Positions 27,823-46,176 of a DNA stretch of 64,000 nt are shown here, in pieces. The notes beneath the pieces are model-generated. The model saw only the letters and a program-made list of their open reading frames with translations, was not told the DNA's origin and did no database searches. The DNA is from Streptomyces sp. SAI-127 (GTDB lineage: Bacteria > Actinomycetota > Actinomycetes > Streptomycetales > Streptomycetaceae): assembly GCF_029894425.1 (NCBI RefSeq), contig NZ_JARXYJ010000001.1, positions 1,054,001 to 1,118,000 on the forward strand, written 5' to 3'. The translations under genes and the position numbers were made by a program. The number at the start of each line of letters is the position of its first letter. The first letter of the stretch is position 1.

Positions 27823-28353
27823 TCAGTGTTCGGGTTCCGCGCCGATGAGGACGAACGCCACCGTGGACGGTTGTCCGCTGCGGTTGCGCCAGGCGTGCCG
27901 GGTGCCGTTCTGGATCACGATGTCGCCCGCCGAGAGCGGGGTGCAGTTTCCGTCGTCGAGTTCGAGGACGATCTCGCCCCCGAGCACGATGCCGTAGTCC
28001 ACGGTCGGCGTCGCGTGCATGCCGTCGGGCTCGATGAGTTCGGCGATACCGGGCGAGTCCGCCCGCTGTTCCCGGTCGTAGGCCGCAGGGTCGAACGCCG
28101 GGTCGGTGAACGCGGCCTCCGGCGGGAAGGTCAGGACGACGAACCGGGTGCCGCCGGGCGCCGGAAGAAGGGTGGTGACCTTCGGCGTGGGGTCCTCTCC
28201 CGCCCTGCTGACCGGTTCGCCGGGGTCGGTGGCCCACGGCAGTCGGGACACCCAGCCAGGCAGGCTGGTGAACTCCCGGCTGCGCGGGACGGGGCCGTCG
28301 CTGACGACGACCGACTTGCCGTTCTCGTCATGGCCGGTGACGACTCTGCGCAT
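27823..28353 (-). CDS. Cupin-domain protein
   Basis: Protein of 176 residues; the cupin barrel is in the C-terminal half, with a VDYGIVLGGEIVLELDD strand pair and a GDIVIQNGTRHAW segment providing a His ligand. The first cupin motif lacks the usual HxH (TVDYGIV instead), so metal binding may be altered. Upstream residues 1-90 are not typical. ATG at 28353 has AAGGAGG about eight bases upstream; only 41 bases separate it from the kinase gene. Cupins in catabolic operons are dioxygenases, isomerases or sensors; the role here is unknown. Confidence 0.8.
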   Translation of the reverse strand: MRRVVTGHDENGKSVVVSDGPVPRSREFTSLPGWVSRLPWATDPGEPVSRAGEDPTPKVTTLLPAPGGTRFVVLTFPPEAAFTDPAFDPAAYDREQRADSPGIAELIEPDGMHATPTVDYGIVLGGEIVLELDDGNCTPLSAGDIVIQNGTRHAWRNRSGQPSTVAFVLIGAEPEH

Positions 28354-28394: not shown

Positions 28395-29447
28395 TCACGC
28401 GGGTCGGCCGCTGTCGGTCTGGGTCGCAGCGTCCAAGGCGGTCACCCAGGCGTCCAGCACACCGACCACCGTGGCTGCGGGCGCCCGCAGCAGGGCCGAC
28501 GCCACCGTCCGGACGAACAGCCGGTGCCGGTCGTCCGTGAGGTACTCCACCGGGGACTTGCCGTCCACACGGGCGAGCAGCAGTGCCGGCAGCAGGGAGG
28601 CGGCCCGCGCCTCCAGGGCGGACCGGGGTTCCCAGTCGATGTGCCGCAGGTATCGATCGGCCAGCGCATGGGCGGACCGCAGGAGTTCGGCGCGGCGGCC
28701 GGGCACGACGAGACTCTTGAGGAGCAGATGGTTGACGCAGAAGGCCAGATCGAAGGCCGGGTCGCCGTACCAGGCGCACTCGGCGTCCAGCAGCACGGGC
28801 CCCGACGGGCCGACGAGGACGTTCTTGGGGCTGACGTCGCCGTGCACCAGGGCCAGGCGGGTACCGGCCGTGCGGTCGGCGAGGCCCTGGAGGATGTCGG
28901 CCAGGCCGGGGTGCGCCGCCGCGGTGGCCAGAAGGTACGGCTCGATCCGCAGGGCGTGGAAGTTTGCGTCCGTGGCGAACTCCGCGGCGAGGACCGTGTC
29001 ACCCGCGCTCGCCGCGTGCAGGGCGCCGAGCACCTCTCCGACGGCCGCCGCGGTCGCCGGCTCCACCTCGCCGGCGAGGAGTTGGGACTTCCACATGGGG
29101 TAGCGCTCGGCGGGCAGGTACGCCATCGCGAACAGGCCGGCCTCGGGGTCGTGTGCCAGCAGTTCGGGCACGCTGTCCGGCCGGTGCAGGGACGCGAACC
29201 GCATCCACGCCCATTCGTAGGCGTTGCGCGACACCGGCGCCTCCCAGTCGGCCGCGACCCGCAGCCGGGCCAGGGCCCGCTTGACGCACAGGGAGCGCCC
29301 CGGCAGGTCCACCCGCCACAGGTCGGAGGAGACTCCTCCGGCCAGCGGCGTCCACCGCGCGGTTTCGCCGGGGAGTGCGAGCTCGTGTGCGGTCAGGAAA
29401 TCGGACAGGGCGCGGTCCGGGGTCTCCGGCGCGGCTGTGGGGCTCAT
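28395..29447 (-). CDS. Aminoglycoside-phosphotransferase-like kinase
   Basis: Protein of 350 residues of the APH/choline kinase superfamily. The Brenner motif HGDVSPKN and the metal-binding DAECAWYGDPAFD lie near residues 200-230. The N-terminal lobe carries LCVKRAL with the probable ATP-binding lysine. Such kinases phosphorylate hydroxyl groups of small molecules, often not antibiotics. Start overlaps the upstream dehydrogenase stop (ATGA), so it is a metabolic gene rather than a resistance gene by context. Together with the downstream enolase paralogue it suggests a phosphorylated intermediate. Confidence 0.87.
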   Translation of the reverse strand: MSPTAAPETPDRALSDFLTAHELALPGETARWTPLAGGVSSDLWRVDLPGRSLCVKRALARLRVAADWEAPVSRNAYEWAWMRFASLHRPDSVPELLAHDPEAGLFAMAYLPAERYPMWKSQLLAGEVEPATAAAVGEVLGALHAASAGDTVLAAEFATDANFHALRIEPYLLATAAAHPGLADILQGLADRTAGTRLALVHGDVSPKNVLVGPSGPVLLDAECAWYGDPAFDLAFCVNHLLLKSLVVPGRRAELLRSAHALADRYLRHIDWEPRSALEARAASLLPALLLARVDGKSPVEYLTDDRHRLFVRTVASALLRAPAATVVGVLDAWVTALDAATQTDSGRPA

Positions 29448-30448
29448 CGCCGGTCACCCGGTCCGGCGGGCAGGCCGCCGGGGTGGTTGCACGGGTGTGC
29501 CGGGGCCTCGCCCGCCAGGATCCGAACGACCTCTTCGGCGGCGCGGCGGCGCAGTTCCGTGACCGAGGCGTCGGAGGAGAAGGCGACGTGGGGGGTGAGC
29601 AGCGCACCGGGCTGGTCCAGCAACCCGGCGGGGACATGGGGCTCGCTCTCCAGGACGTCGAAGGCGGCTCCGTCCAGCTGGCCGCCGTCCAGCGCCTTGA
29701 TGACCGCGTCGGTGTCGACCAGGCCGCCGCGGCTGACGTTGACCAGCAGCCCGCCCGGCTTCATCAGCGCCAGCTGATCGGCGCCGATGAGGTGGTGGGT
29801 GCCGGGTGTCAGCGGCACGTGGAGGATCACCGCGTCGCTTCGGCGCAGCAGTTCCTGAAGGTCGACCAGCTCGACTCCGGGGGCGTCCTTCGGAAGATGA
29901 GGGTCGTGGGCCAGGATCCGGCAGCCGAACGCGCCGAGCTTGCGGGCGGTGGCGCGTCCGATCCGGCCGAAGCCGACGATGCCGCAGGTCAGCGTGGACA
30001 ACCGGCGCAACCGGGCGCCGGCCGGGTCCCAGCGACCCGTACGGACCTCCCGGTCGAAGACGGCCAGGCCGCGCGTCCAGGCGAGCACCATGCCGACGGC
30101 GTGGTCGGAGACCTCGTCGACGCAGTAGTCCGGCACGTTGGTGACCCACACGCCCCGCTCGGTGGCGGTGTCCACGGCGATGTTGTCGAGGCCGACGCCG
30201 AGCCTGGCCACGATCCGAAGATCGGGGGAAGCCTCGACGGCGAGGGAGGAGACGGGCGCCCAGCAGGTGAGGATGCCGGCGGGCCGGTGCTCGGCGACCA
30301 GCTCCTCGATGGTGTCGGCGGAGGCGGGTTCCGCGGGGCCGGACACCAGCGTGTGGCCCGCGCCCTCGATGACGGATCGCTCGACGGAGTCGTCGGGCCA
30401 GGCGTAGTCGGTGAGCAGCACGGTGTCTGGGCGGCTCGGTGGTGTCAT
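29444..30448 (-). CDS. D-2-hydroxyacid dehydrogenase
   Basis: NAD-dependent enzyme of 334 residues of the formate/glycerate dehydrogenase-like family. The nucleotide motif GIVGFGRIG is near residue 155; the substrate Arg, catalytic Glu and catalytic His are in VSRGGLVD, ESEPH and LTPHVAF in the last third. Related enzymes include hydroxypyruvate and glyoxylate reductases and C-terminal-binding-protein-like dehydrogenases. First gene of the leftward kinase/cupin operon. A LacI-type operator lies 277 bases upstream, shared with the divergent MFS gene. Confidence 0.9.
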   Translation of the reverse strand: MTPPSRPDTVLLTDYAWPDDSVERSVIEGAGHTLVSGPAEPASADTIEELVAEHRPAGILTCWAPVSSLAVEASPDLRIVARLGVGLDNIAVDTATERGVWVTNVPDYCVDEVSDHAVGMVLAWTRGLAVFDREVRTGRWDPAGARLRRLSTLTCGIVGFGRIGRATARKLGAFGCRILAHDPHLPKDAPGVELVDLQELLRRSDAVILHVPLTPGTHHLIGADQLALMKPGGLLVNVSRGGLVDTDAVIKALDGGQLDGAAFDVLESEPHVPAGLLDQPGALLTPHVAFSSDASVTELRRRAAEEVVRILAGEAPAHPCNHPGGLPAGPGDRR

Positions 30449-31175
30449 GGCAGATCGTCCTCGCAGAAATCGTACGGCCGCCGTGGACGGCCGGGTTTGA
30501 CGTCCGGTCTCGTCCGATCAGCAGGTCTGAGCATCACCCGGGACGGCGGCCGTCGGCTGTCCGATGGTCCACGGCCGCCATGGGCGCGGGGGAAGAGTGT
30601 CGCTGGGCTCGGTCGGGTGTCACCGGCGCTCCCCGACTCGTGGTCGGAAGACGCCGGTACAGGCCCCCGGAACTGGGTCACGCGATGCCGGGGCACGTCG
30701 AATCACTTTGTCACAGCCACATGATGCTAACGATAGCACTGTGGGTCTGCGAATCGTCAAGAACGCGGCGTGCAGCGGCTCACCCGCGCCCCGTACCCGA
30801 GGCCGGCGGGCCCGCTCATCACGGCAAAGCGGGGGAATCCCAGGAAATCCGTCCGTACATCTTGACGCGCCGGGCACTTCCCTTCATGGTTTCAGCCAAC
30901 CCCGGCCGTGCGGCCGACACGTATCCGCACAAGGTCCGGTTGTCGAAGACGCCATAGCCACGGACGTCCCCGACGGGCGCTATCCGGCTGAATTCCGCAT
31001 GCGGTGTCCGACCGCGCGGTGGCCGATCGCCCGCATTCCGTCAGACGGCGCCCGATTTCGCCGTCGCCGACTCGAGTCCGTGTTCAGCTCACCGCTTCTT
31101 TCCTCGCCGCACGCCTCCCGTGCGCCGATGGATCCGCCGCGGCCTGCCGTGGCCCATTCCTCATCAGGAGCCGCA
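30449..31175. other. Long intergenic region with operator
   Basis: About 730 bases between the D-2-hydroxyacid dehydrogenase and the divergent MFS transporter. A few ORFs up to 170 codons exist, but their composition resembles non-coding DNA and I recognise no protein. The only feature supported is a LacI-type operator at 30725-30738. A TTGTCA hexamer (30708-30713) precedes it by about 11 bases and may be part of a promoter that the site blocks. Confidence 0.6.
30725..30738. promoter_or_regulatory. Putative LacI-type operator 1
   Basis: TGCTAACGATAGCA, a near-perfect dyad centred on CG. It differs from the perfect palindrome at 33350-33363 at one base. It lies between the D-2-hydroxyacid dehydrogenase operon and the MFS gene, so it could control either or both. 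Confidence 0.75.
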
Positions 31176-32444
31176 ATGCCTCACGCAGCGCAAGTCGACA
31201 CCAGTGCAGTGCCCGTCAAGGACACACAGGAAAGCAACCGGCCCCCCGTCTCCCGCGCCATGATCGGCGTGGGCTTCCTGTTGGTGGTCCTCTCCTACAT
31301 GGTCAACGCGATGGACCGTCAGGTCTTCCCGCCGCTGCTGCCCAACATCCGTGCGGAATACGGGTTCTCCCTGGATCAGGGCGGCCTGCTGGCGACGAAC
31401 TTCACCCTCGGCATGGCCCTGGCCGGCCTGCCCGCGGGGTATCTGCTGGACCGCTTCCGACGCAAGACCGTCCTGCTGGTCAGCATCGTCATCTACTCCC
31501 TGGGCACGATGGCCACCCCGCTGGCGACCGGCTTTGCCGACATGACCCTGTACCGGGTCGTGTCGGGCTTCGGTGAGGGCATGCAGTCCGCTGCGATCTT
31601 CGCGGCGATGGGTGCCTTCTTCGTCCAGCGGCGCGGCCTCGCGTTCGGTGTCATCGGCATGGGCTACTCCGTCGGCGTGTTCATCGCCCCGCTCATCGGT
31701 GTCGGACTCGCCGACACGCACGGCACCTGGCACTCGCCCTTCTACCTGTTCGGCACGGCCGGGCTGCTGATCGCCGCCGCCTCCCTGTTCCTCGTGAAGG
31801 CCGGCCTGACCGAGCACTCCGCCGAGAAGGCCGTCTCGACCAGCACCTACGAGTACATGCCGGCCTCCGCCTACAACCGCAACACCATCGCGCTTGCCGT
31901 CCACTCGGTCGTCAGCGGTGTGGCCATCTACGGATTCCTGGGCCTCTACCCGACGTACCTCATCACCTCGCTGCACTACTCCTCCGAGCAGGCCGCGCTG
32001 GCGATGAGCTTCCTCGGCTTCGGCGGCATGGCGGCCCTGTTCGGCGGCTGGCTCGGCGACCGCGTGAACCAGCGCAACCTGCTGATCCTGAGCCTGCTGG
32101 CCGTCTCCGCCATCAGCGCGTGCATCTACGAGACACAGGCGGGAGTCGGCGTGCAGTGTGTGTTCGCCTTCCTCATGGGCGCCTTCGGCCTGGGGTTCAT
32201 CTATCCCAACAGCAACAGTGCGATGCAGCGGGCCGTCCGTCCGGCACAGATCGGACGCGCCTCCGGCCTGTTCGTCACCAGCTACTACGGACCGGCGGCG
32301 TTCTCGGGTCTGCTCTTCGCCGCTCTGGTGGGCTCCTTCGGCTGGGACCGGGCCGGACTCCTGCAGGTCACGCTCCTGCCGCTGGTCGGCGTCCTCGCCC
32401 TTGCCTTCGTCCGTCCCGCGCAGTTCAACAGCGCGGTCCGCTGA
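31176..32444 (+). CDS. MFS transporter
   Basis: Protein of 422 residues with twelve predicted membrane segments, the first at about residues 28-48. Early motif FRRKTVLLVSI is near the loop 2-3 region that carries the MFS signature. Closest in style to the anion:cation symporter or hexuronate/aromatic-acid groups, so import of an organic acid is likely. ATG at 31176 has AGGAG upstream; the frame is open for 200 codons before it without membrane or family character. It sits between LacI-type sites and the FAH-family gene, so it probably supplies the regulon's substrate. Confidence 0.85.
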   Translation: MPHAAQVDTSAVPVKDTQESNRPPVSRAMIGVGFLLVVLSYMVNAMDRQVFPPLLPNIRAEYGFSLDQGGLLATNFTLGMALAGLPAGYLLDRFRRKTVLLVSIVIYSLGTMATPLATGFADMTLYRVVSGFGEGMQSAAIFAAMGAFFVQRRGLAFGVIGMGYSVGVFIAPLIGVGLADTHGTWHSPFYLFGTAGLLIAAASLFLVKAGLTEHSAEKAVSTSTYEYMPASAYNRNTIALAVHSVVSGVAIYGFLGLYPTYLITSLHYSSEQAALAMSFLGFGGMAALFGGWLGDRVNQRNLLILSLLAVSAISACIYETQAGVGVQCVFAFLMGAFGLGFIYPNSNSAMQRAVRPAQIGRASGLFVTSYYGPAAFSGLLFAALVGSFGWDRAGLLQVTLLPLVGVLALAFVRPAQFNSAVR

Positions 32445-32450
32445 CACACC

Positions 32451-32489
32451 AAGGGGGCTGCCCACCGCCGAGCGGTGGGCAGCCCCCTT
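32451..32489. terminator. Bidirectional terminator hairpin
   Basis: Perfect 18-base inverted repeat (32451-32468 and 32472-32489) with loop CGA. The stem begins AAGGGGG and ends CCCCCTT, so each strand has a short AA/TT flank. It separates the convergent MFS and FAH-family genes. Confidence 0.85.
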
Positions 32490-32516
32490 GTGCGGTCACT
32501 CCGCGGGCCTTTGCGG

Positions 32517-33296
32517 TCAACGGCTCTCGGCCACGACCGGGTTGCGCAGAACGCCGATGCCCTCGATCTCGACCTCGACCTCGTCTCCGGGACGGATCGG
32601 CCCGACACCGGCAGGCGTGCCGGTCATGATCGCGTCTCCGGGCAGCAGCGTCAGGTAGCGGCTGAGGTAGCTGACGAGGTCCGGGACGGGGAGCAGCAGG
32701 TCGGCGGTGCTGGCCGACTGCATGACTCGGCCGTTCACACGGGTCGTCAACGACAGCGCGGACGGGTCGAGTTCCGTGGCGATGACCGGCCCGAGGGGAG
32801 CGAAGGTGTCCTGGCCCTTCCCGATCAGCAGCGTTCCGTATGTGCTTTCCTTGCGCTGCACGATGCGGTCGCTGACGTCATTTCCGCAGGTATAGCCGAG
32901 GATGTACTCATGAGCCTCGGAAGGCTTGACATGGCGGGCTTCCTTTCCGATGACCACGACCAACTCGCCCTCGAAATGGATGAGTTCGCCATCCTCCGGA
33001 TAAACGATGGCGTCCCCCGGTCCCACCACCGCCGTGCTCGGCTTCATGAAGCACACGGGAACCTCCGGAATCTCACGGTCGGTCTCGCCGACGTGTGAGG
33101 CGTAGTTGTACGCGAACCCGTAGATCCGGGGTTTCTCGACCGGCGGGAGAATGACGACGTCGCTCACTTCGTCGACGTGTCCCGCAAGGGACAGTCCCGT
33201 AAAGGGGTCGCCCTCGAATCGGGCGATGGTGACGTCACCGGGTTCGAGTTCTCCGTAGTGACACACACCGCCGACGGCATACCTGACGATCCGCAC
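32517..33296 (-). CDS. Fumarylacetoacetate hydrolase family protein
   Basis: Protein of 259 residues. FAH-family marks: FAYNYASHVGE near residue 60, CFMKPSTAVVGPGD, the metal ligands in HFEGELVVVIGK, GYTCGNDVSDR, and TGTPAGVGPIRPGD near the C-terminus. Members hydrolyse or decarboxylate acylpyruvate-like products of ring cleavage, including the HpcE/HpaG isomerase-decarboxylase of the homoprotocatechuate route. GTG at 33296 is preferred: GGAGG lies five bases upstream and MRIVRYA is the usual start, although codons continue to 33335. A perfect operator lies 54 bases upstream. Confidence 0.92.
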   Translation of the reverse strand: MRIVRYAVGGVCHYGELEPGDVTIARFEGDPFTGLSLAGHVDEVSDVVILPPVEKPRIYGFAYNYASHVGETDREIPEVPVCFMKPSTAVVGPGDAIVYPEDGELIHFEGELVVVIGKEARHVKPSEAHEYILGYTCGNDVSDRIVQRKESTYGTLLIGKGQDTFAPLGPVIATELDPSALSLTTRVNGRVMQSASTADLLLPVPDLVSYLSRYLTLLPGDAIMTGTPAGVGPIRPGDEVEVEIEGIGVLRNPVVAESR

Positions 33297-33349
33297 GGAC
33301 ACCTCCGTACTTTGGGCAGCCATGGGCGGCTGCACGGCCCATCCAGCAA

Positions 33350-33363
33350 TGCTAACGTTAGCA
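33350..33363. promoter_or_regulatory. Putative LacI-type operator 2 (perfect palindrome)
   Basis: TGCTAACGTTAGCA, perfect on both arms and extended to 16 bases by A/T (33349-33364). On the minus strand a TATTAT (-10-like, 33363-33368) abuts it, which would place the operator at the start of FAH-family transcription. Confidence 0.8.
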
Positions 33364-33420
33364 TAATAGGTGATGCCCGAGCCCGCCGCTCCGCTCCCCG
33401 ACCACGCAGCGCAACACGAG

Positions 33421-33434
33421 TGCTATCGTTGGCA
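33421..33434. promoter_or_regulatory. Putative LacI-type operator 3
   Basis: TGCTATCGTTGGCA, with one mismatched pair in the outer arms, 49 bases before the LacI start. Its centre is 71 bases from operator 2, close to seven helical turns, which would allow looping or joint control of the divergent FAH-family gene and autoregulation. Confidence 0.7.
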
Positions 33435-33482
33435 TACGGAAGGTGACGACCGCGGGAACAGTCAGCCGGAGGGGACGCTTAC

Positions 33483-34514
33483 GTGATCACGACCAGGGAC
33501 ATCGCCGAGCGTCTCGGGATCTCCGTCTCGACGGTCGGCCGGGCCCTCGCCGACGACGCGCGCATCAGCGAGGAGACCAAGTTCCGGGTCCGCCAGACCG
33601 CTTCCGAGATGGGCTACGTCGGCAACCGGGCGGCGCGGATGATGCGCGGAGCGTCCAGCAACGTGGTCGCGCTGGTCATCCCGGACATCCGCAACAGCTT
33701 CTACTCGACCATCGCGCACGAGCTCTCCAAGAACATGGCGGCCGAGGGCTTCCAGTTGATGCTCTCGGAGACCGACGACGACCGGATGGTGGAGCTGCGT
33801 CATCTGCGGGAGCTGTCCGCGAACCGCGTGGCCGGCGTCATCATCGTGCCCACCGCGCGTCCGCACAGCGAGTCCGTCAAACTCCTGCGCGCCGTACCGC
33901 ACCTGCAGTTGCTGCGCCGTCACCCCTCGCTCGGCTCCCAGTGGTTCGGTGTGGACGACCGCGAGGCACTGCACCGCGCCACGGCCCACCTGGTGGCGCT
34001 GGGACACACCCGCATCGCCTATCTGGGCGGCCCCGAGGAACTGCCGACGGGTGCGGAGCGTCTGGGCGGCTTCCGCGCCGCCCTGGAGGAGGGCGGCCTT
34101 GCGGACGACGCCGGACGCGCCGAGCTGGGGCCGCCGTCGTCCGTGCACCACGGGCGCGAGGCGGTACGTCGGCTGCTGCAGGGGCCGGCCGCTCCCACCG
34201 CACTCGTGCTGGGATCGATCCAGCTCACCCTGGGTGTTCTGGAGGAGCTGTCCGCGCAGGGCGTGAAGGTGCCCGGCGAGCTGTCCGTGGTCGGGTTCGG
34301 GGACGAGCCCGGCTTCTCCTGGTGGGGCCCCGGGCTCACCACGATCGGCCTGCCGATCCAGGAGATGGCGACCAGCTGCGCACTGTGGCTTCTGCGTCGC
34401 CTCAAGAACGAGCCGGACAACGACGGCCCGTACACGTCGGTCTCCCCCGGATCGCTGGTTCTGCGCGGCAGCACGGCACCCCTCGACGGAAAGGTTCCGT
34501 CCAAGTCCGCCTGA
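33483..34514 (+). CDS. LacI-family transcriptional regulator
   Basis: Protein of 343 residues. The N-terminal LacI HTH spans residues 3-24 (TTRDIAERLGISVSTVGRAL), followed by the hinge motif NRAARMMRG, in which Met replaces the usual lever Leu. The rest is a periplasmic-binding-like effector domain (VVALVIPDIRNSFY, LGHTRIAYLGGP). GTG at 33483 has GGAGGGG upstream. It diverges from the FAH-family gene across two putative operators and precedes the convergent FMN reductase pseudogene. Most likely represses a regulon of five sites until an aromatic acid or pathway intermediate binds. Confidence 0.93.
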   Translation: MITTRDIAERLGISVSTVGRALADDARISEETKFRVRQTASEMGYVGNRAARMMRGASSNVVALVIPDIRNSFYSTIAHELSKNMAAEGFQLMLSETDDDRMVELRHLRELSANRVAGVIIVPTARPHSESVKLLRAVPHLQLLRRHPSLGSQWFGVDDREALHRATAHLVALGHTRIAYLGGPEELPTGAERLGGFRAALEEGGLADDAGRAELGPPSSVHHGREAVRRLLQGPAAPTALVLGSIQLTLGVLEELSAQGVKVPGELSVVGFGDEPGFSWWGPGLTTIGLPIQEMATSCALWLLRRLKNEPDNDGPYTSVSPGSLVLRGSTAPLDGKVPSKSA

Positions 34515-34545
34515 GCGGGTCGCACCTCGAGTCGCCACCGGCCTT

Positions 34546-34604
34546 GCGCGAGAACGTGAAGGTGCCCGGAGCGCTGCGCTCCGGGCACCTTCACGTTCTC
34601 GCGC
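34546..34604. terminator. Bidirectional terminator, 29-base arms
   Basis: A perfect inverted repeat of 29 bases per arm (34546-34574 and 34576-34604) around a single T lies between the convergent LacI and FMN reductase genes. A realistic stem is about 27 pairs with a four- or five-base loop. It is exceptionally long for a terminator and would also extrude as a cruciform. Confidence 0.8.
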
Positions 34605-34608
34605 CGCG

Positions 34609-35203
34609 TCAGTGGGCTCCGCTGCGCAGCCGGCGCATGACGGTGGCGGTGCGCGCGAGTTCCTCGAGCACGTGCCCGGCCGCCGCCTCGTGGATCTTGC
34701 CGGGGCGGAAGGCGCCGTCGTCGACCTGTTCGTTGACGAAGGGGATGCTCACGGTCGGCCCGATCGGCAGCATCCTGAGGTTGGCCACGACCTGCTTGGC
34801 CATCTGCACCGCCCGGGTGCCCGCCGAGACACCGCCGTAGCTGACGAACGCCGCCGGCTTGTGCTGCCACTCCACCACCAGATAGTCCCACGCGTTCTTC
34901 AGGGGGGGCCGGAAACCCTCCGTTGTACTCGGGGGTGACGAACACGAACGCGTCCGACGAGTCGACGATCCGGCTCCAGGCACGGGTGTGACTCTTCGTG
35001 TACTGCCTCAGAGCGGGCGGATGCGGCTCGTCGTAGAACGGCAGGTCGAGTTCGCGCAGGTCGACCAGGTGTGATGCGAACTGGTCGCACTCGGCGACCT
35101 GGGAGGTGAACCAGTCCGCGACGGATCTGCCCACACGTCCGGGACGGGTGCTGGCCACGACCGTGGTCAGAGTCATGGGTGCCACCGAGGGCTCGGATGT
35201 CAT
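34609..35203 (-). pseudogene. NADPH-dependent FMN reductase-like, frameshifted
   Basis: Two overlapping frames reconstruct one flavodoxin-fold reductase of about 197 residues. The first frame gives VVASTRPGRVGRSVADWF and ends FVTPEYNGGFPAP; the second resumes at LKNAWDYLVVEWQHKPAAFVSYGG. The break falls in a run of seven G (34902-34908, C on the coding strand): one base fewer would restore the frame. So this is either a real inactivation, slippage at a homopolymer, or an assembly error. ATG at 35203 is preferred over 35176. Convergent with LacI, and preceded by operator 4 about 116 bases upstream, so it belongs to the same regulon. Confidence 0.85.
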
Positions 35204-35318
35204 GTCGGGCTCGCTTTCCTGTCGGCCGCGATCGGCCCGGCGAGCCCACGCCGCCTGTGCTGTCCGTTCTTCCAGGAGGAGGTGGGCCCGCCGGAGTTTC
35301 AGCCACTGCCACGGGGTG

Positions 35319-35332
35319 TGCGAACGATAGCA
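35319..35332. promoter_or_regulatory. Putative LacI-type operator 4
   Basis: TGCGAACGATAGCA, matching the consensus except for the fourth base. It lies 116 bases upstream of the FMN reductase start and in the divergent region leading to the enolase operon; its centre is 115 bases from operator 5. Confidence 0.65.
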
Positions 35333-35401
35333 TTGGCGCGCGAACGGCCCAAGCAAAGGGAAACGAGCAACCTGTAGGAGGAATGGAACACTCCTCACCC
35401 C

Positions 35402-35431
35402 TTGACAGGACGGGCTCACAGTTCGCACGAT
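35402..35431 (+). promoter_or_regulatory. Promoter candidate for enolase operon
   Basis: A perfect -35 hexamer TTGACA is at 35402-35407, and after 18 bases a poorer -10 candidate CACGAT is at 35426-35431. Operator 5 begins three bases later, at the expected transcription start. The enolase gene starts about 190 bases downstream. Confidence 0.5.
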
Positions 35432-35433
35432 TG

Positions 35434-35447
35434 CGCTATCGATAGCA
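35434..35447. promoter_or_regulatory. Putative LacI-type operator 5
   Basis: CGCTATCGATAGCA; the inner twelve bases GCTATCGATAGC are a perfect palindrome. It lies right behind a TTGACA promoter candidate, so a bound repressor would block the enolase operon. Confidence 0.75.
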
Positions 35448-35625: not shown

Positions 35626-36936
35626 ATGACAGACGCGCGGATCGCCAAGCTCTATGGCCGCAGGGTGTGGGACTCCCGCGGGCGGCCGACCGTCGAGGTC
35701 GAGGTGCACCTCGCGGACGGAGCAAGCGGGCGGGCCATCGCACCGGCGGGAGCCTCGACGGGTCAGGGCGAGGCGCTCGACCTGCGTGACGGCGGCTCCC
35801 GCTTCGGCGGACTCGACGTCCGTCGCGCCGTCGGTTCGGTCAACCAGGAGATCGCGCCCGCCCTCCTGGACCTCGACGCGATCGACCAGGAGGCCGTCGA
35901 CCGGCTCCTGGTGAACCTCGACGGCACCCCCGACCGCAGCCGCCTGGGCGGCAACGCCGTCGTCGCCACGTCCATGGCGGTGCTGCACGCCGCCGCCGCG
36001 TCGGCGGGCGTACCGCTGTGGCGGCACCTGTCGGGCGATCGGCCGGTTCGCATCCCCCTGCCGGAGATCCAGATCTTCGGCGGCGGCGCCCACGCGGACC
36101 GTCGCGTGGACGTCCAGGACTTCATGGTCGTCTGCCCCGCGGCACGCAGCTTCAGCGAGGCCCTCGACTGGACCGCGGAGATCTACCGGGCGGCCGGCAG
36201 CCTGATGCGCAAGGCGGGCAAGGCACAGGGCGTGGCGGACGAGGGCGGCTTCTGGCCCGCGTTCGACTCCAACGAGGAGGCGTTGGAGACCCTGACCCTC
36301 GCCATCGAGACCGCCGGCTTCACGCCGGCCACACAGGTCGGCATCTCGCTGGACATCGCGGCCTCACAGTTCGGCACCGGTGGGCGCTACACGCTGGCCC
36401 TGGACGACCGCACCCTGGACACCGCGGCGCTGATCGACATGCTCGGCGGCTGGATCGAGCAGTACCCGATCCTGTCCGTCGAGGACCCGGTGGGCGAGGA
36501 CGACCACGAGGGCATGGTGGAGTTCACCCGGCGATTCGGCCACCGCTGCCAGGTGATCGGCGACGACTACCTGGTCACCAACGCCAAGCGCGTGGAAGCG
36601 GCGGCCACCAACGGGGCGGCGAACGCCGTCCTCGTCAAGCCGAACCAGGCGGGCACGGTCACCGAGGCCCACCAGGCCCTGCGTGCCGGAAAGGACGCCG
36701 GCTTCGCCACCATCGTGTCGGCCCGCTCGGGCGAGAGCGAGGACATCACCATCTCGCACCTGAGCGTCGGTTGGGACGCGGGCCAGCTGAAGGTGGGCTC
36801 CTTCACACGCTCCGAGCGTATGGCGAAGTGGAACGAGGTTCTGCGCATCGAGGAGGCCCTCGGCGATTCCGCGGAATTCAGCGGCTGGTCGGCCTTCACA
36901 TTCGCCGATTCCACCCGTTCCGCGACCAAGCCGTAA
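35626..36936 (+). CDS. Enolase paralogue with altered active site
   Basis: Protein of 436 residues of full enolase length and fold: the GASTG loop at 42-46, metal ligands D243, E286 and D313, the base K338 and acid E206 (DEGG), K389, and His156 all present. However, the position of yeast Glu168 is Asp165 (VQDFM instead of QEFM), and that of His373 is Ala367 (SARSGE instead of SHRSGE). It is therefore unlikely to be the glycolytic enolase of the cell. It heads an operon with a dioxygenase-like, a CMD-like and an alcohol dehydrogenase gene behind a LacI-type operator. It may act on another 2-phospho-3-hydroxy acid or a related compound; this is inference. Confidence 0.85.
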   Translation: MTDARIAKLYGRRVWDSRGRPTVEVEVHLADGASGRAIAPAGASTGQGEALDLRDGGSRFGGLDVRRAVGSVNQEIAPALLDLDAIDQEAVDRLLVNLDGTPDRSRLGGNAVVATSMAVLHAAAASAGVPLWRHLSGDRPVRIPLPEIQIFGGGAHADRRVDVQDFMVVCPAARSFSEALDWTAEIYRAAGSLMRKAGKAQGVADEGGFWPAFDSNEEALETLTLAIETAGFTPATQVGISLDIAASQFGTGGRYTLALDDRTLDTAALIDMLGGWIEQYPILSVEDPVGEDDHEGMVEFTRRFGHRCQVIGDDYLVTNAKRVEAAATNGAANAVLVKPNQAGTVTEAHQALRAGKDAGFATIVSARSGESEDITISHLSVGWDAGQLKVGSFTRSERMAKWNEVLRIEEALGDSAEFSGWSAFTFADSTRSATKP

Positions 36937-36996: not shown

Positions 36997-38001
36997 ATGC
37001 TGCCACCCGTCAATCTGCGACCGAGTTTCAACATCACCCGCTCCAGTCATGTCCGGCTCACGGTCGCGGACCTGGCCGAGAGCCGGAACTTCTATGCGAG
37101 CGCCCTCGGGCTCGTCGTCAGCGACGAGGACGAGCGCACCTGCTATCTCCGCGGGCTCGCCGAGGCATGCCACCACAGCCTCGTCCTGGAGCTGGACGAA
37201 GAGGGCGCCGGTTCCTGTCAGAGGATCGGTTTCCGCGTCTTCTTCGACGAGGACCTCGACATCGCCTACACATGGTTCCGCGACCGGGGGCTGCCCGCGG
37301 AGTGGGTCGACATGCCGTACCAGGGCCGCACCCTGCACGTCAGCGACCCGGTCGGTACACCGCTGGAACTCTGCGCGCACATGGAGACGCGCCCGAGGCT
37401 GCACATCGACTTCGAGCACTACAAGGGCGCCCACGCGCAACGTCTGGACCACTTCCAGACCTTCGCGCCGAACACCTATGAACTGACCGCGTTCTACGGC
37501 GAACTCGGCTTCCGCAACTCCGAGTACCTGGCGCACGGCGACACCCTGCTGAGCGCGTTCATGTACCGCAAGGGCACGTGCCTGGACCTCGCGATCGTGG
37601 AGAACACCGGGCCCGCCCTGCACCACTTCGCCTACACCGTCTCCGAGAGCCGCGACATCTTCACCGCCTGCGACTGGGCGGGCATCCTCGGCTACGGCGA
37701 AGGGGTGGAGCGGGGTCCGGGACGGCACGGGCCGGGCGGCATGCTCTTCACCTACCTCCGCGACCCCGACGGTCACCGGGTGGAGGTCTTCAACAGCCAC
37801 TACCAGACCATCGACACCGAGGTCGAGCCGGTGCGCTGGGACGCGGGATCGCTGAGCACCAACGTGCGCTGGGGACTTCCCGCGCTGGAGAAGTGGTACT
37901 TCGAGGCCTCGCCCTTCGTGGGAGTGAAGCAGATCCCGCCGGCCCAGGTGCCGCAGCCCATGACCCTCGAGCGGTTCCTGCTCGAGCAGTCCGCCCACTG
38001 A
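36997..38001 (+). CDS. Homoprotocatechuate 2,3-dioxygenase-like protein
   Basis: Protein of 334 residues with duplicated VOC modules, resembling the type I extradiol homoprotocatechuate 2,3-dioxygenase (HpaD/HpcB). Metal ligands H152 (RLDHF), H210 (LHHFAY) and E263 (HRVEVF) are intact, as are H244 and Y253 of ERGPGRHG and the following strand. The catalytic His that follows the second module's fifth strand (His200 of the Brevibacterium enzyme) is Leu196 in TCLDLA, and Asn157 is Gln154. So a metal centre is kept but proton transfer is altered. The product could differ from ordinary meta-cleavage. It starts 60 bases after the enolase stop in the same operon. Confidence 0.85.
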   Translation: MLPPVNLRPSFNITRSSHVRLTVADLAESRNFYASALGLVVSDEDERTCYLRGLAEACHHSLVLELDEEGAGSCQRIGFRVFFDEDLDIAYTWFRDRGLPAEWVDMPYQGRTLHVSDPVGTPLELCAHMETRPRLHIDFEHYKGAHAQRLDHFQTFAPNTYELTAFYGELGFRNSEYLAHGDTLLSAFMYRKGTCLDLAIVENTGPALHHFAYTVSESRDIFTACDWAGILGYGEGVERGPGRHGPGGMLFTYLRDPDGHRVEVFNSHYQTIDTEVEPVRWDAGSLSTNVRWGLPALEKWYFEASPFVGVKQIPPAQVPQPMTLERFLLEQSAH

Positions 38002-38026: not shown

Positions 38027-38578
38027 ATGGCACGCGTTCCCTACCTTCGCCGCGAGGATGCGGACGAGGCGAACAAGCCCCTGTACGACCGGCTCGAAGC
38101 CGAACGCAAAGTACCGACGGCGAACATCTTCCTCGCTCTCGCGGGCGCGCCCGAGCAGCTGGACGGGTTTCTGACCTACGCCAACTCACTGCGGGCCGCC
38201 GACCTCAGCCCCAAGCTGCGTGAGCTGGCCATTCTGACCGTGGGGTACGCGACGCGTTCCGCCTACGAGGTCGCGCACCACCAGTCGCACGGACTCAAGG
38301 CCGGACTCACCGGGGAACAGCTCGCGGCGGTGGCCGACTTCGAGTCGTCCGAGTTGTTCGACGCGACGGAAAAGGCGGTCATGCGCCTCGCGAAGGAATC
38401 CACACTCCACGTCGATGTCTCTGAGGAAACATGGCGTGCCGCCGCCGATCACCTGACGGACCGGCAGATGGTCGAACTGTCGTTGTCCATCGCCTGGTAC
38501 AACTCCGGCGTCCGCATCATGGGTCTGCTGGACATCGACCTTGAGGACAATTACCCGAACCCGTTCCAGAATTCCTAG
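38027..38578 (+). CDS. Carboxymuconolactone decarboxylase/AhpD-like protein
   Basis: Protein of 183 residues of the CMD/AhpD all-helical family. The family core LRELAILTVGYATRSAYEVAHH is near residues 68-88; the ExxH-type Glu/His site is kept but the CxxC peroxidase cysteines of AhpD are absent, favouring the decarboxylase-like or hydratase-like subgroup. It starts 25 bases after the dioxygenase stop and precedes an alcohol dehydrogenase. In this operon it may act on the ring-cleavage or lactone product. Exact reaction is not predictable. Confidence 0.87.
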   Translation: MARVPYLRREDADEANKPLYDRLEAERKVPTANIFLALAGAPEQLDGFLTYANSLRAADLSPKLRELAILTVGYATRSAYEVAHHQSHGLKAGLTGEQLAAVADFESSELFDATEKAVMRLAKESTLHVDVSEETWRAAADHLTDRQMVELSLSIAWYNSGVRIMGLLDIDLEDNYPNPFQNS

Positions 38579-38618: not shown

Positions 38619-39728
38619 ATGGCGAAGATGCTCGCTGCACGACTGCACAAGCTCGGTGAGCCGATGTCCGTGGACACCGTCGACGTGCCCACCCCCCGGC
38701 CGACCGACGTGCTGGTGCGCGTCAAGGCATGCGGAATCGTGCCGAACATGGCCAACGTGATCAACAACTGGCCCTCTTGGTACCCGCACCAGCCGCTGCC
38801 CCAGCTGCCCGCGATCTTCGGCCTGGACCCGGCGGGCGTGGTCGAGGCCGTCGGCGAGGCGGTGCTCAACACCAAGCCCGGCGACCGGGTCTATGTGAGC
38901 CCGCTGCGCTCCTGCGGCAGCTGTCAGGTGTGCCGCGGAGGCGAGCTCAGCCGGTGCCGCTACTTCACCCTGAACGGTTACTTCAGCACCTCCCGCGACG
39001 GCCAGCGGATCTTCGACCTCTACCCGTACGGCGGGTTCTGCGAGTACATGACGGCGCCGCAGCACTCGATCGTCAACATCCCCGACAACATGACGTTCGA
39101 GCAGGCCGGCAAGCTCGGCTACATCGGCACCTCCTACAGAGCCCTCAAGTACGCCGTGGCCAGCCCCGGCCAGGTCGGGCTGATCGACGGAATCACCGGC
39201 ACCCTCGGCGTCGCCTCCACCCTGCTCGCGCTGGCCTCGGGCGTCTCCAGGGTCCTCGGAACCGGCCGCAACGAGGAACTCCTCAAACGCGTCAAGGAAC
39301 TGGCCCCGGACCGGATCGAGGTCATGCGGCTGGGCGAGGGATCCACCGGCGCGTGGGCGAAGTCCCGCACCGGAGGCGAGGGTGCGGACTTCGTCATCAG
39401 CGCTCTGGGCGCCAAGGCGCCGGTGGAGACGATGCTGGATTCCATGCAGGGCGTCCGCCGGGGCGGCCGGGTGGTCAACGTCGGGGGTGTGGCCGACCGG
39501 TTGCCCGTGGACGTGAAGTGGCTCATGGACGAGCAGGTCCACCTGATCGGCTCCAACTGGTTCTCCACCGCGCAGGGTCAGGAGGTCGCCGACATGGTGG
39601 CCACCGGAGCCCTGGACCTGTCCTACCTGATCACCAAGCCGTTCCCGCTGTCCAAGGTCAACGAAGCGATCTCGGGACGTGCCGCGGACCTCGACGGCGG
39701 ATTCAGCAACTACGTCGTGCTTCCCTGA
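38619..39728 (+). CDS. Zinc-type alcohol dehydrogenase with lost catalytic His
   Basis: Protein of 369 residues of the MDR superfamily. The structural zinc Cys set (C99, C102, C105, C113; CGSCQVCRGG) is intact. The catalytic Cys38 is present (ACGIV), but GHE is GLD (68-70), so the catalytic zinc His is missing and the following CHSD-type segment is VPNM. The NAD-binding region is GITGTLGVAST. It is last in the enolase operon. It probably still binds NAD but may work without catalytic zinc, or with a different substrate, such as a 2-hydroxy acid or enol compound. Confidence 0.85.
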   Translation: MAKMLAARLHKLGEPMSVDTVDVPTPRPTDVLVRVKACGIVPNMANVINNWPSWYPHQPLPQLPAIFGLDPAGVVEAVGEAVLNTKPGDRVYVSPLRSCGSCQVCRGGELSRCRYFTLNGYFSTSRDGQRIFDLYPYGGFCEYMTAPQHSIVNIPDNMTFEQAGKLGYIGTSYRALKYAVASPGQVGLIDGITGTLGVASTLLALASGVSRVLGTGRNEELLKRVKELAPDRIEVMRLGEGSTGAWAKSRTGGEGADFVISALGAKAPVETMLDSMQGVRRGGRVVNVGGVADRLPVDVKWLMDEQVHLIGSNWFSTAQGQEVADMVATGALDLSYLITKPFPLSKVNEAISGRAADLDGGFSNYVVLP

Positions 39729-39817
39729 CCCCACGGACCATCCACACTCACCCCGCGGCGATCCTGTTCTGCCCTGACTGCGCCGCGGGGTGCCCGCACC
39801 ACAGGACGGAGGAGCCG

Positions 39818-40723
39818 GTGGAACTGCGCTGGCTGGAATCGTTCGTCGTCGTCGCGGAGGAACTGCACTTCGCGCGGGCGGCGGATCGTCTGCACCTCGC
39901 CCCGTCGGCACTCAGCGCCCAGATCAGGGCGCTGGAGTCGCACCTGGGTGTGCGGCTGATCGACCGGGGGCGACGCACCCGCCCGGCGCTGACCAGTGCC
40001 GGGCAGCTGTTCCTCGACGAAGCGCGGCTGACCCTCGCACAGGCCGCCCGAGCCGTGGCCGTGGGCCGGCGGGCAGGGCGCGGGGAGCTGGGGCACGCCC
40101 AGATCGCGTACGTCGCCTCGGCCGCGTTCTCCGGGGTGCTCACCGATGTCCTCACCCGGTGCGCGGCCCCCGGCACCGATCTGACGGTGCAGGTGCGCGA
40201 GTTGGAGACACCGGCCCAACTGGAGGCGCTGGCCTGCGGTGACATCGACGTCGGCTTCCTGCGCTGGCGGCCGGAGTACCCGCCCGAGGTCACGGCCACC
40301 TGCCTGCTCAGCGAGGAGGTCGTCCTGGCACTGCCGGCCGGCGCGCCCCTGGCGGCGTACGAGACGATTCCCGCGGCCATGCTGCGTGACGAGAACTTCG
40401 TGGCCCCGCACTTCGACGAGGAGTACGGCTGCCGCGACCAGATCCTGGAAGTGGCCGAGCGGGGAGGCTTCAGTCCCCTGTGCGCTCCCCCGGTGCGGGA
40501 CTACGTCGCCGCGCTGACGCTGGTGGGCGGTGGTCTCGCGGTGGCCCTGGTCCCCGACTCGCTGCGGCGCGTGCACATCCCCGGGGTGGCCTACCGTCCG
40601 CTGGCGGACGTATCGCTCACCACCCGGCTGGTGGGTGCCTACCGCAGGGGTGAGACCTCGCCCGCGGTGCGCGGTGTGATCCGCCGGCTGCGGGAGGCCG
40701 CGGTCTCGACGGCCGCCGGCTGA
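39818..40723 (+). CDS. LysR-family transcriptional regulator
   Basis: Protein of 301 residues. The HTH is in ELRWLESFVVVAEELHFARAADRLHLAPSALS at residues 2-33, followed by the usual linker helix and an effector-binding domain. GTG at 39818 has GGAGGAG upstream; the frame is open much further but overlaps the dehydrogenase gene. It follows the enolase operon by 89 bases and precedes a 3-hydroxyacyl-CoA dehydrogenase. It may control that dehydrogenase (through the element at 40808) or the glutaryl-CoA operon; no target is proven. Confidence 0.92.
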   Translation: MELRWLESFVVVAEELHFARAADRLHLAPSALSAQIRALESHLGVRLIDRGRRTRPALTSAGQLFLDEARLTLAQAARAVAVGRRAGRGELGHAQIAYVASAAFSGVLTDVLTRCAAPGTDLTVQVRELETPAQLEALACGDIDVGFLRWRPEYPPEVTATCLLSEEVVLALPAGAPLAAYETIPAAMLRDENFVAPHFDEEYGCRDQILEVAERGGFSPLCAPPVRDYVAALTLVGGGLAVALVPDSLRRVHIPGVAYRPLADVSLTTRLVGAYRRGETSPAVRGVIRRLREAAVSTAAG

Positions 40724-40807
40724 GGCCCTGATCCCGATGCCGTTCCGGGCGGGCCGTTCGTCGTGGTCCGCGCAGCGCCGCGCGGGTCGGCCGGTCAGCG
40801 TCGAACA

Positions 40808-40839
40808 GACGCATGTTTGTGCGCGGATGACGCACTGTT
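40808..40839 (+). promoter_or_regulatory. Regulatory element A, shared with 46715
   Basis: A 32-base element that begins GACGCATGTTTGTGCG and matches element B at 46715-46746 at 25 of 32 positions. It lies 105-136 bases upstream of the 3-hydroxyacyl-CoA dehydrogenase start. The arms GACGCA and TGCGCG form an imperfect dyad around TGTTTG. Confidence 0.6.
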
Positions 40840-40943
40840 TTCGCAGGTCAGAGCAGGTATGCCGGTCTACGCTCAACACGGAAGCACACACCGTGGCGGC
40901 GTCGGTCGACCGCCGCCCGACGGAGGGACAGGCGGAGAAGCAC

Positions 40944-41810
40944 ATGACAGCGATCAAGCACGTGGGCGTCGTAGGCGCGGGCCAGATGGGCCGGGGCATC
41001 ACCGAGGTCTGTGCACGGGCCGGGCTGCACGTCACGTTGTGCGACGTGACCGAGGACAGGGCCCGGGCCGGGCTGGCGGGTGTGGCGGACTCCCTGCTCA
41101 AGGCGGAGAAGCGCGGTGCGATCGCACCCGAGGACCGCGCACTCGCCCTGGCCGGGGTCTCGGTCACCGACGATCTGTCCCGCCTGTCGAGGGCGGACCT
41201 GGTGATCGAGGCCGCCGTGGAGGACGAGCAGGCCAAGACCGAACTGTTCCGGCAGCTGGACAAGGTGGTCACGAACCCGGCCGCCGTGCTGGCCAGCAAC
41301 ACGTCCTCCATCCCCATCGCCAGGCTCGCGGCGGTGACCGGCCGGCCGGAGGCGGTGGTGGGCCTGCACTTCTTCAACCCGGTTCCCGTCATGCCGCTGG
41401 TCGAGGTGATCCCCTCGCTGCACACCTCGAAGGCCACGGAACTGCGGGTGCGTGCCTTCGCGGGCGAGATCCTGGGCAAGAAGACGGTCGTGGCGCAGGA
41501 CCGCGCGGGTTTCGTGGTGAACTCCCTGCTGGTGCCCTACCTGTTGGCGGCGGTGCGGATGGTGAGCTCCGGTACGGCGACGGCGGAGGACATCGACACG
41601 GGGATGACCGCCGGTTGCGCTCACCCCATGGGTCCGCTGCGTCTGGCCGATCTCATCGGGCTCGACACCGTCGCGGCGATCGGTGAAGCACTGTACGAGG
41701 AGTACCGGGAACCGCTGTACGCCCCGCCCCCATTGCTGCGCCGCATGGTCGAATCGGGGCTGCTGGGCCGTAAGTCGGGGCAGGGGTTCTTCAGCTACCG
41801 GGCGGCCTGA
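40944..41810 (+). CDS. 3-hydroxyacyl-CoA dehydrogenase (HBDH family)
   Basis: Protein of 288 residues, paralogue of the gene at 26.9 kb. NAD site GAGQMGRGITE near residues 10-20, catalytic region ASNTSSIPIA and LHFFNPVPV, and a C-terminal dimerisation half with GCAHPMGPLRLADLIGLD. It should oxidise a short-chain (3S)-3-hydroxyacyl-CoA with NAD. ATG at 40944 follows GGAG; the frame is open upstream. It stands alone on the right strand between LysR and the ETF genes, with a shared element 105 bases upstream, so it probably completes the glutaryl-/crotonyl-CoA branch. Confidence 0.93.
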   Translation: MTAIKHVGVVGAGQMGRGITEVCARAGLHVTLCDVTEDRARAGLAGVADSLLKAEKRGAIAPEDRALALAGVSVTDDLSRLSRADLVIEAAVEDEQAKTELFRQLDKVVTNPAAVLASNTSSIPIARLAAVTGRPEAVVGLHFFNPVPVMPLVEVIPSLHTSKATELRVRAFAGEILGKKTVVAQDRAGFVVNSLLVPYLLAAVRMVSSGTATAEDIDTGMTAGCAHPMGPLRLADLIGLDTVAAIGEALYEEYREPLYAPPPLLRRMVESGLLGRKSGQGFFSYRAA

Positions 41811-41906: not shown

Positions 41907-42872
41907 TCAGGCGGTCCCGCGACGGGCGGCCACTGCCTGCGTGAGCTGGGGAGCCACCGAGAACAGGTCGCCCACCACGCCGTAGTCGGCCACACCGAAG
42001 ACCGGTGCCTCCGGGTCCTTGTTGACCGCCACGATCGTCTTGGACGTCTGCATCCCGGCGAGGTGCTGGATGGCCCCGGAGATGCCCAGCGCGATGTACA
42101 GCTGCGGGGAGACGGACTTGCCGGTCTGCCCCACCTGGTACTGGTGGGGGTAGTACCCGGCGTCGACCGCGGCACGGGACGCGCCGACCGCACCGCCCAG
42201 GACGTCGGCCAGCTCCTCCACCACCTTGAAGCCCTCCGCTCCCGCGACACCGCGTCCCCCGGAGACGACGACGCTCGCCTCGGTCAGCGCGGGACGGTCG
42301 CCCGCGAGCGGGGCGCGGCGGGCGATGACGCGGGCGGATGCCGCCGGGTCGACCGGCGCCGGGACGAGCTCGTGCTCCACCGCCGCCACGGGATGTTCCT
42401 CCGGCTCGAAGGCGCCCGGCCGCAGGGCGATCACCGGTACCCCGTGGGTGACCTCGGAGCGCACGGTGTACGACCCGCCGAAGACGATCTGGGTGACCAC
42501 TCCGGAGGCGTCCAGGTCGACCGCGTCGATCAACAACCCGCTGTCCAGTCGCGCGGCGAGACGCCCGGCCACCTCCTTGCCGTCGGTTGTCGCGGAGACC
42601 AGAACGGCGGCGGGAGAGACCTCCCGTGCCGCCGACTCCAGGGCCTCGACGGCGGGCGAGCCAAGAAATCCGTCGGCCTGCGCGGATTCGGCCGCGTAGA
42701 CGCTGGTGGCGCCGTGCCGGGCGAGGGAGTCCTTGAGGCGGGCCGCGGTGCCGGGAGTTCCCACGAGCACGGCGGCCGGGTCGCCCAACCTCCGTGCGGC
42801 GGCCAGGAGTTCGTACGTTGACTTGTGGACGTGATCCCCGTCGTGGTCGACGAGGACGAGGACGTCGGGCAT
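41907..42872 (-). CDS. etfA: Electron transfer flavoprotein alpha subunit
   Basis: Protein of 321 residues. The FAD-binding C-terminal domain carries [33 protein letters not shown] and [17 protein letters not shown], the family signature. It accepts electrons from the acyl-CoA dehydrogenases and passes them to ETF-quinone oxidoreductase. It starts 29 bases after the stop of the beta subunit gene. Last gene of the DUF35-CoA transferase-dehydrogenase-ETF operon, so it is probably a pathway-dedicated ETF, distinct from the housekeeping one expected elsewhere on the chromosome. Confidence 0.96.
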
Positions 42873-42901
42873 GGGTGTGCCTGCTTCTTGGTCGGAGCGG
42901 T

Positions 42902-43678: not shown

Positions 43679-43703
43679 GGTCGTCTTCCTTCGGCCGGGG
43701 CGG

Positions 43704-46117: not shown

Positions 46118-46176
46118 GCGCCCTCCTCTCTCTTCGTGCCGCCTACGCGAACTGACATGACCGGTGCCGTGTCCTC

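Follow-up and report, generated by a model that had tools for sequence, protein, structure and literature searches.

In the survey of LacI-family regulons by Ravcheev et al. (2014, PMC4052901), 1173 of 1303 regulators are assigned an even palindrome with a central CG, and divergent promoters and multiple sites per regulon are common features. The terms enolase, aromatic and hydroxypyruvate are absent from the main text of that survey. Here we analyse a locus of the same general design in Streptomyces sp. SAI-127, where five palindromic operators surround a gene for a LacI-family protein and border eleven genes; the window, that is, the whole stretch of DNA that was analysed, comprises 64 kb (C1:1054001-1118000). 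The proposed regulon is a new one of the known LacI type, with the same operator form, divergent promoters and multiple sites, but differs from the surveyed regulons in that its pathway is probably aromatic and that one operator is conserved across phyla. It is set apart by a modified enolase within an undescribed pathway.

Parts of the gene set recall described pathways. With the homoprotocatechuate (4-hydroxyphenylacetate) meta-cleavage pathway, which is normally under regulators other than LacI, it shares the dioxygenase family of its VOC protein and an HpaG-like FAH-family enzyme. However, the window VOC and FAH proteins score below the HpaD and HpaG cut-offs, and the former keeps neither His200 nor the Arg pair of homoprotocatechuate 2,3-dioxygenase (HPCD), on which grounds the ordinary hpa pathway was rejected. 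In addition, hpaE, hpaF, hpaH and hpaI were not recognised among the window genes scanned (part of the open reading frames) or in the annotated relatives. Methylotrophs convert hydroxypyruvate to D-glycerate, 2-phosphoglycerate and phosphoenolpyruvate (PEP) in the serine cycle, and the segment of that cycle from hydroxypyruvate to oxaloacetate resembles the window cluster in combining a 2-hydroxyacid dehydrogenase, a kinase and an enolase, joined in some taxa by PEP carboxylase; the window differs in its APH-fold kinase and deviant enolase, a comparison confined to this segment. The deviant enolase belongs to the fold family of phosphopyruvate hydratase (TIGR01060), passes the curated cut-off of that family (483 bits, cut-off 300) and retains the base Lys345, the acid Glu211 and the metal and phosphate ligands (yeast numbering), but has Asp for Glu168, Ala for His373 and Ala for the Gly just before the DEGG motif, and is partnered by an APH-fold kinase.

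We consider it likely, with a probability of roughly 0.75, that the eleven genes form a single LacI regulon for one catabolic pathway, probably that of an aromatic acid.

The operators and their proposed regulator

A search of the window with the pattern TGCTAWCGWTAGCA at up to three mismatches returned only five dyads, which start at 30725, 33350, 33421, 35319 and 35434 (Table 1), exactly where an earlier note on this DNA had placed them and, as it had also claimed, with no further copy in the 64 kb. Its statement that all five fit the pattern is accurate for the first two, which are exact, but each of the other three has one mismatch. All five have the central CG that, together with the even palindrome, defines LacI operators (PMC4052901). 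By itself, the window scan is weak evidence, given that shuffled windows yield a mean of 1.47 matches at the same limit and that 2 of 100 shuffles reach five. The complete genome (10,720,516 bases in three contigs), searched at up to two mismatches, contains ten sites, namely these five, with zero or one mismatch, and five scattered sites with two mismatches; all five sites with at most one mismatch fall within 4.7 kb, whereas the reversed-pattern control gives seven matches at up to two mismatches and one at up to one. The pattern is clustered at these genes rather than common across the genome, which is the outcome on which the earlier note had staked its proposal.

Three intergenic regions harbour the operators. 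To the left of operator 1 are the genes for D-2-hydroxyacid dehydrogenase (D2H), the kinase and the cupin protein, and to its right the MFS transporter gene; operators 2 and 3 are flanked by the FAH and LacI genes, and operators 4 and 5 by the FMN reductase gene and the series enolase, VOC, CMD and zinc alcohol dehydrogenase (ADH), eleven genes in total. These identities, assigned by Pfam and NCBIfam profile searches with part of the window open reading frames, agree with those given in the earlier note. The regulator combines a helix-turn-helix domain with a periplasmic-binding-protein-like ligand domain, both above the family cut-offs. When the three regions are aligned across 25 to 28 of 30 Streptomyces loci (window included), the dyads appear as near-invariant islands in variable DNA. 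The alignment, read by eye, also contains a conserved TTGACA upstream of operator 5, which may serve the enolase operon as a -35 element and would then put this operator at about the transcription start; a strict promoter scan gave no match.

The distribution of the regulator follows that of the sites. In a sample of 199 Streptomyces genomes, including that of SAI-127, a LacI ortholog (E <= 1e-60) is present in 11, with nine at 87-93% identity and one (G014) at 69%, and 22 contain sites at up to one mismatch. Each of the 11 LacI-positive genomes carries 3 to 6 sites, for a total of 50, of which 49 are at the LacI locus and one is on another contig (genome G176), against 2 matches of the reversed pattern in the same genomes. 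The 188 LacI-negative genomes contain 12 isolated sites, one or two apiece, in 11 genomes. The VOC protein is encoded in 10 of the 199 genomes, every one LacI-positive.

Recurrence across phyla

A search with the VOC protein recovered 62 loci in genome contigs and 101 plasmid records at E <= 1e-60, 15 of the latter at 60-80% identity. As judged by tblastn and from annotated plasmids, D2H, kinase, enolase, VOC, ADH, FAH and cupin genes occur together, usually with CMD and often with LacI and flavin reductase, in Streptomyces, Parafrankia, Arthrobacter, Nocardia, Rhodococcus, Burkholderiaceae, Variovorax, Duganella and kin, Microvirga, Rhizobium and sphingomonads; some loci are without single members, partly where the locus or contig ends. 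Among the Streptomyces with the locus is S. canus DSM 40017 (L055).

Operators were sought in 69 of these loci (the 62 contig loci and 7 plasmid loci, 1.48 Mb), which represent Actinomycetota as well as Beta- and Alphaproteobacteria. At up to one mismatch, 269 sites were found, at least one in 69/69 loci and at least two in 66/69, whereas 20 control palindromes, made by shuffling the half-site, averaged 0.3 matches and never exceeded 5. Two loci in which only distant HpaD-like paralogs occur (L128 and L129, 48-50% identity) have no site at up to two mismatches; in a third, L123, there are three sites with two mismatches. The earlier note had called the regulon local; besides its clustering in this genome, the unit is also present in other phyla.

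The sites precede the same classes of genes. With each site paired to the nearest gene start within 500 bp and sites between divergent genes counted twice, the downstream genes in 42 loci, 40 of which are not from Streptomyces, are cupin (37), FAH (35), LacI (27), VOC (20), D2H (19), FAHb (16), MFS (15), ABC permease and porin (12 each) and flavin reductase (5); monooxygenase HsaA, PEP carboxylase, CMD, enolase, a TonB receptor, a PcaK-like transporter, cytochrome b561 and MarR account for 2 each, and LysR and MCP for 1 each. Three sites have no gene of the query set nearby (L093:17726, L109:18952, L127:35608). In two sphingomonads (L121:28171; L113:19244), an exact operator lies 21-48 bp upstream of a cytochrome b561-like gene, and in L121 a gene for 3-hydroxybutyryl-CoA dehydrogenase starts 68 bp from the operator on the other side.

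Whole genomes corresponding to 18 loci all contain sites (18/18); in the 11 with a full record of sites, 56 of 68 are on the contig of the cluster and one more (G210) is near the lacI gene of that genome, with 32 matches in total for the reversed pattern. For 18 genomes in which the fetched locus contains operators yet lacks a LacI ortholog, the prediction was tested that LacI should be encoded elsewhere. It was found in 16, at 59-88% identity; in 11 of them it lies 0.2-10 kb beyond the fetched part of the same contig and in 5 on other contigs; for a nineteenth such locus, L111, LacI is present in L151. Taken together, genome clustering, the co-occurrence of LacI and sites in the 199 genomes, the conserved islands and the recurrence across phyla support the proposal of the earlier note that the eleven genes belong to a single LacI regulon and serve a common pathway, and this support goes beyond the original claim; DNA binding by LacI is a prediction.

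The deviant enolase and the nature of the pathway

The operators alone do not name the pathway. In the scenario we favour, the LacI-family protein would be an autoregulated repressor that acts through the five operators in the three divergent intergenic regions on the D2H-kinase-cupin genes, the MFS, FAH, lacI and FMN reductase genes and the enolase-VOC-CMD-ADH series, and would be released from DNA by the substrate or an intermediate. Following uptake, the VOC protein would cleave the ring, with later conversion by ADH, CMD, the flavin reductase, the cupin protein and the FAH enzyme, whereas one fragment would be handled by the dehydrogenase, the APH-fold kinase and the modified enolase; the substrate that the enolase dehydrates would most likely be some phosphorylated hydroxy acid different from 2-phosphoglycerate. 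Such a route might split a C6-C3 phenolic acid into two parts, one resembling glutarate and the other a small hydroxy-keto acid that would pass to dehydrogenase, kinase and enolase. We put at about even odds the full proposition, that of a widespread, undescribed, LacI-controlled pathway with a cross-phylum operator, where the phosphorylation-activated dehydration of such a hydroxy acid is the work of an APH-fold kinase together with a neofunctionalised enolase.

We compared 199 cluster-type enolases (181 distinct; 79 from the loci and 120 among the matches listed in a protein search that gave 7998 proteins at E <= 1e-80, a limit that housekeeping enolases also pass) with 21 housekeeping enolases, 19 from the genomes of relatives and two from SAI-127. 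Precisely three of 436 positions separate the two groups without exception, and six more do so nearly: the substitutions of Glu168, His373 and the Gly before Asp-Glu211 (DEGG) are present in 199/199 cluster-type and 0/21 housekeeping sequences, so that these 199 enolases are devoid of the catalytic Glu168 and His373 of canonical enolases. Lys345, Glu211, the metal ligands and the phosphate-binding residues are kept in all 72 enolases aligned. The signature is shared by cluster enolases from Parafrankia, Arthrobacter, Nocardia, Sphingomonas and G014 that are just 43-48% identical to that of the window. In a 51-row tree, a single branch (100/99) parts cluster from housekeeping enolases, but long branches meet there and the tree is no proof of a single origin. 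The genome of SAI-127 encodes two other enolases with normal motifs, one of which, the third enolase gene of this genome, is on the 384-kb contig C2 (G000:C2:21551-22801, L119) and has a long branch in the tree. A separate housekeeping enolase is encoded in each of the 18 genomes of relatives.

The kinase was detected in three of 396 genomes of the phylum, that of SAI-127 and two from another family at 37-39% identity, and in both of the latter it directly adjoins an enolase with all three signature residues, while searches of these two genomes for VOC, LacI and D2H gave no matches. Because the two genes adjoin in the absence of the rest of the cluster, the kinase and the deviant enolase look like a functional pair. 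These two-gene pairs are located next to genes for an MR_MLE protein (L213:8736-10942) and an SDR protein (L214:2652-4852), respectively.

In a competing, less likely assignment, the regulon is the same but D2H, kinase and enolase follow the serine cycle and convert hydroxypyruvate from ring cleavage to PEP by way of D-glycerate and 2-phosphoglycerate, with PEP carboxylase producing oxaloacetate in some taxa. Compatible with this route are the score of the enolase above the phosphopyruvate hydratase cut-off, the resemblance of D2H to models of phosphoglycerate dehydrogenase and glyoxylate reductase, none of whose cut-offs it reaches, and the canonical PEP carboxylase gene that adjoins the cluster in Rhodococcus and in Rhizobium, where both loci have an operator about 49 bp upstream of it; PEP carboxylase also lies next to the cluster in Microvirga and Cupriavidus. 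However, the loss of Glu168 and His373 in 199/199 sequences argues against 2-phosphoglycerate as the substrate, and a dedicated enolase for it would be needless given the housekeeping enzyme in 18/18 genomes of relatives.

Residues 6-308 of the VOC protein align with HPCD, and the protein has a score of 284 bits against the curated HPCD/HpaD model (TIGR02295, cut-off 321). In the alignment of 76 VOC sequences (73 distinct), the HPCD metal ligands His155, His214 and Glu267 are kept in 76/76. Three distant VOC paralogs have Gln, Trp and Ser at the position of HPCD His200. An aromatic substrate is further suggested by a gene for an HsaA/HPA-hydroxylase-like monooxygenase (below cut-off) downstream of an operator in Rhodococcus and by transporters, in the window and in relatives, of types used for aromatic acids, among others; monooxygenase homologs are also found near the cluster in 8 Streptomyces loci, with none in the window.

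Several observations weigh against an aromatic-acid regulon of this composition. Tyr replaces the catalytic His200 in all 76 VOC sequences, and the VOC protein lacks the Arg pair of HPCD, which leaves ring cleavage by this protein uncertain. The G014 genome has LacI, D2H, kinase and deviant enolase together with an FAH gene and three sites, but a search of it found no VOC ortholog. In two of the 18 genomes tested for LacI, no ortholog was found; both are truncated draft contigs, one of 5.3 kb (L060) and the other ending within the locus (L073). Operator 1 is about 280 bp from the D2H start codon and about 440 bp from that of MFS, whereas more than 75% of the LacI sites covered by the regulon survey are at 30-140 bp (PMC4052901). 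Finally, most characterised LacI-family proteins sense sugars (PMC4052901).

The last point, together with the absence of His200, speaks for a sugar acid or cyclitol as the substrate of the same regulon, with a VOC protein that is not a ring-cleaving dioxygenase; the closest model to ADH is scyllo-inosose 3-dehydrogenase (126 bits, cut-off 450), and a hydrolase model of the rhamnonate pathway is among those matched by the FAH enzyme (158 bits, cut-off 500). We regard this substrate as unlikely in view of the invariant metal ligands, the Rhodococcus monooxygenase and the aromatic-acid-type transporters. It is highly improbable that this LacI is a bystander and that the dyads are bound by another regulator such as a LacI paralog: Streptomycetaceae average 32 LacI paralogs per genome (PMC4052901), but ortholog and sites occur together in 11/11 genus genomes and 16/18 tested genomes, and two sites are upstream of lacI itself. 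A chance or structural origin of the dyads, to which only the window shuffles at the loose limit lend any credence, was rejected as next to impossible given the genome scan, the 199-genome co-occurrence, the conserved islands and the shuffled-palindrome control.

For the favoured aromatic-acid regulon, the substrate is not named by the plasmid relatives, two of whose records carry no annotation, the off-cluster sites in 18 whole genomes, the VOC-less G014 or the two distant kinase-enolase genomes. Nothing pertinent was drawn from a paper on isoflavone catabolism (PMC11069340) or from a literature search on the enolase residues, and a literature search, which missed most subscription journals, found no description of this gene set.

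Neighbouring genes and implications

Table 1. Operators, genes of the proposed regulon and adjoining genes (positions in the window)
Feature	Position	Strand	Remarks
Operator 1	30725..30738	.	TGCTAACGATAGCA, exact dyad; between D2H (-) and MFS (+); conserved island in 25/30 aligned Streptomyces loci
Operator 2	33350..33363	.	TGCTAACGTTAGCA, exact dyad; between FAH (-) and lacI (+); conserved in Streptomyces alignment
Operator 3	33421..33434	.	TGCTATCGTTGGCA, one mismatch; about 49 bp upstream of lacI; conserved in Streptomyces alignment
Operator 4	35319..35332	.	TGCGAACGATAGCA, one mismatch; upstream of FMN reductase (-); conserved in Streptomyces alignment
Operator 5	35434..35447	.	CGCTATCGATAGCA, one mismatch; upstream of enolase operon (+); conserved in Streptomyces alignment
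TTGACA	35402..35407	+	possible -35 element of enolase operon
Cupin protein	27823..28353	-	PF07883; recurs in relatives
APH-fold kinase	28395..29447	-	PF01636; beside deviant enolase in distant genomes
D-2-hydroxyacid dehydrogenase (D2H)	29444..30448	-	PF02826/PF00389
MFS transporter	31176..32444	+	nearest aromatic acid/H+ symporters, below cut-off of that model
FAH-family enzyme, HpaG-like	32517..33302	-	start codon uncertain; open reading frame extends to 33335
LacI-family regulator	33483..34514	+	PF00356 41 bits (cut-off 27), PF13377 100 bits (cut-off 26.5)
NADPH-dependent FMN reductase	34609..35204	-	frameshift at 34902-34908
Deviant enolase	35626..36936	+	Glu168Asp, Gly to Ala before DEGG, His373Ala
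VOC protein	36997..38001	+	related to homoprotocatechuate 2,3-dioxygenase
CMD-family protein	38027..38578	+	PF02627
Zinc alcohol dehydrogenase family protein (ADH)	38619..39728	+	identified by profile searches
LysR-type regulator	39809..40723	+	adjoins regulon, within open reading frame 38729-40723; no operator in window
3-hydroxybutyryl-CoA dehydrogenase	40737..41810	+	PRK07819, 428 bits (cut-off 319); no operator in window
ETF alpha and beta, acyl-CoA dehydrogenase, CoA-transferase family III	41907..46183	-	linked in some relatives; no operator in window

The FMN reductase frame is broken at a run of seven G; the gene is in one frame in 33 of 36 relatives with a match, so the frameshift in the window either arose recently or reflects an error in sequencing. 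Downstream of the regulon, relatives of the CoA-transferase, acyl-CoA dehydrogenase and 3-hydroxybutyryl-CoA dehydrogenase are present in 38, 47 and 45, respectively, of 84 loci (a set that includes three repeated genomes, L044/L069, L050/L065 and L051/L056), many of which end earlier; the model closest to the window CoA-transferase is that of succinate-glutarate CoA-transferase, with a score under the cut-off. A sixth site, TGCTATCGTCAGCA, located where the LysR gene region begins in some Streptomyces loci (L057:12917; L058:13012; L074:12989), is absent from the window. In G014 (L052:9538-17822), an AraC gene is beside two operators, and EPSP-synthase-like and aminotransferase genes are close by.

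The regulon is common to Actinomycetota and Beta- and Alphaproteobacteria, including Streptomyces, Rhodococcus, Arthrobacter, Variovorax, Paraburkholderia, Rhizobium and sphingomonads, among others. It suggests a pathway used by bacteria of soils and roots, the substrate of which would be revealed by the inducer of the operon. Members of the deviant enolase subfamily are at present labelled phosphopyruvate hydratase or enolase in databases, and recognition of the subfamily, if the proposed function is true, would correct such automatic annotations. It would also mean that a new reaction was gained within the glycolytic enolase's own family and not just in its distant superfamily.

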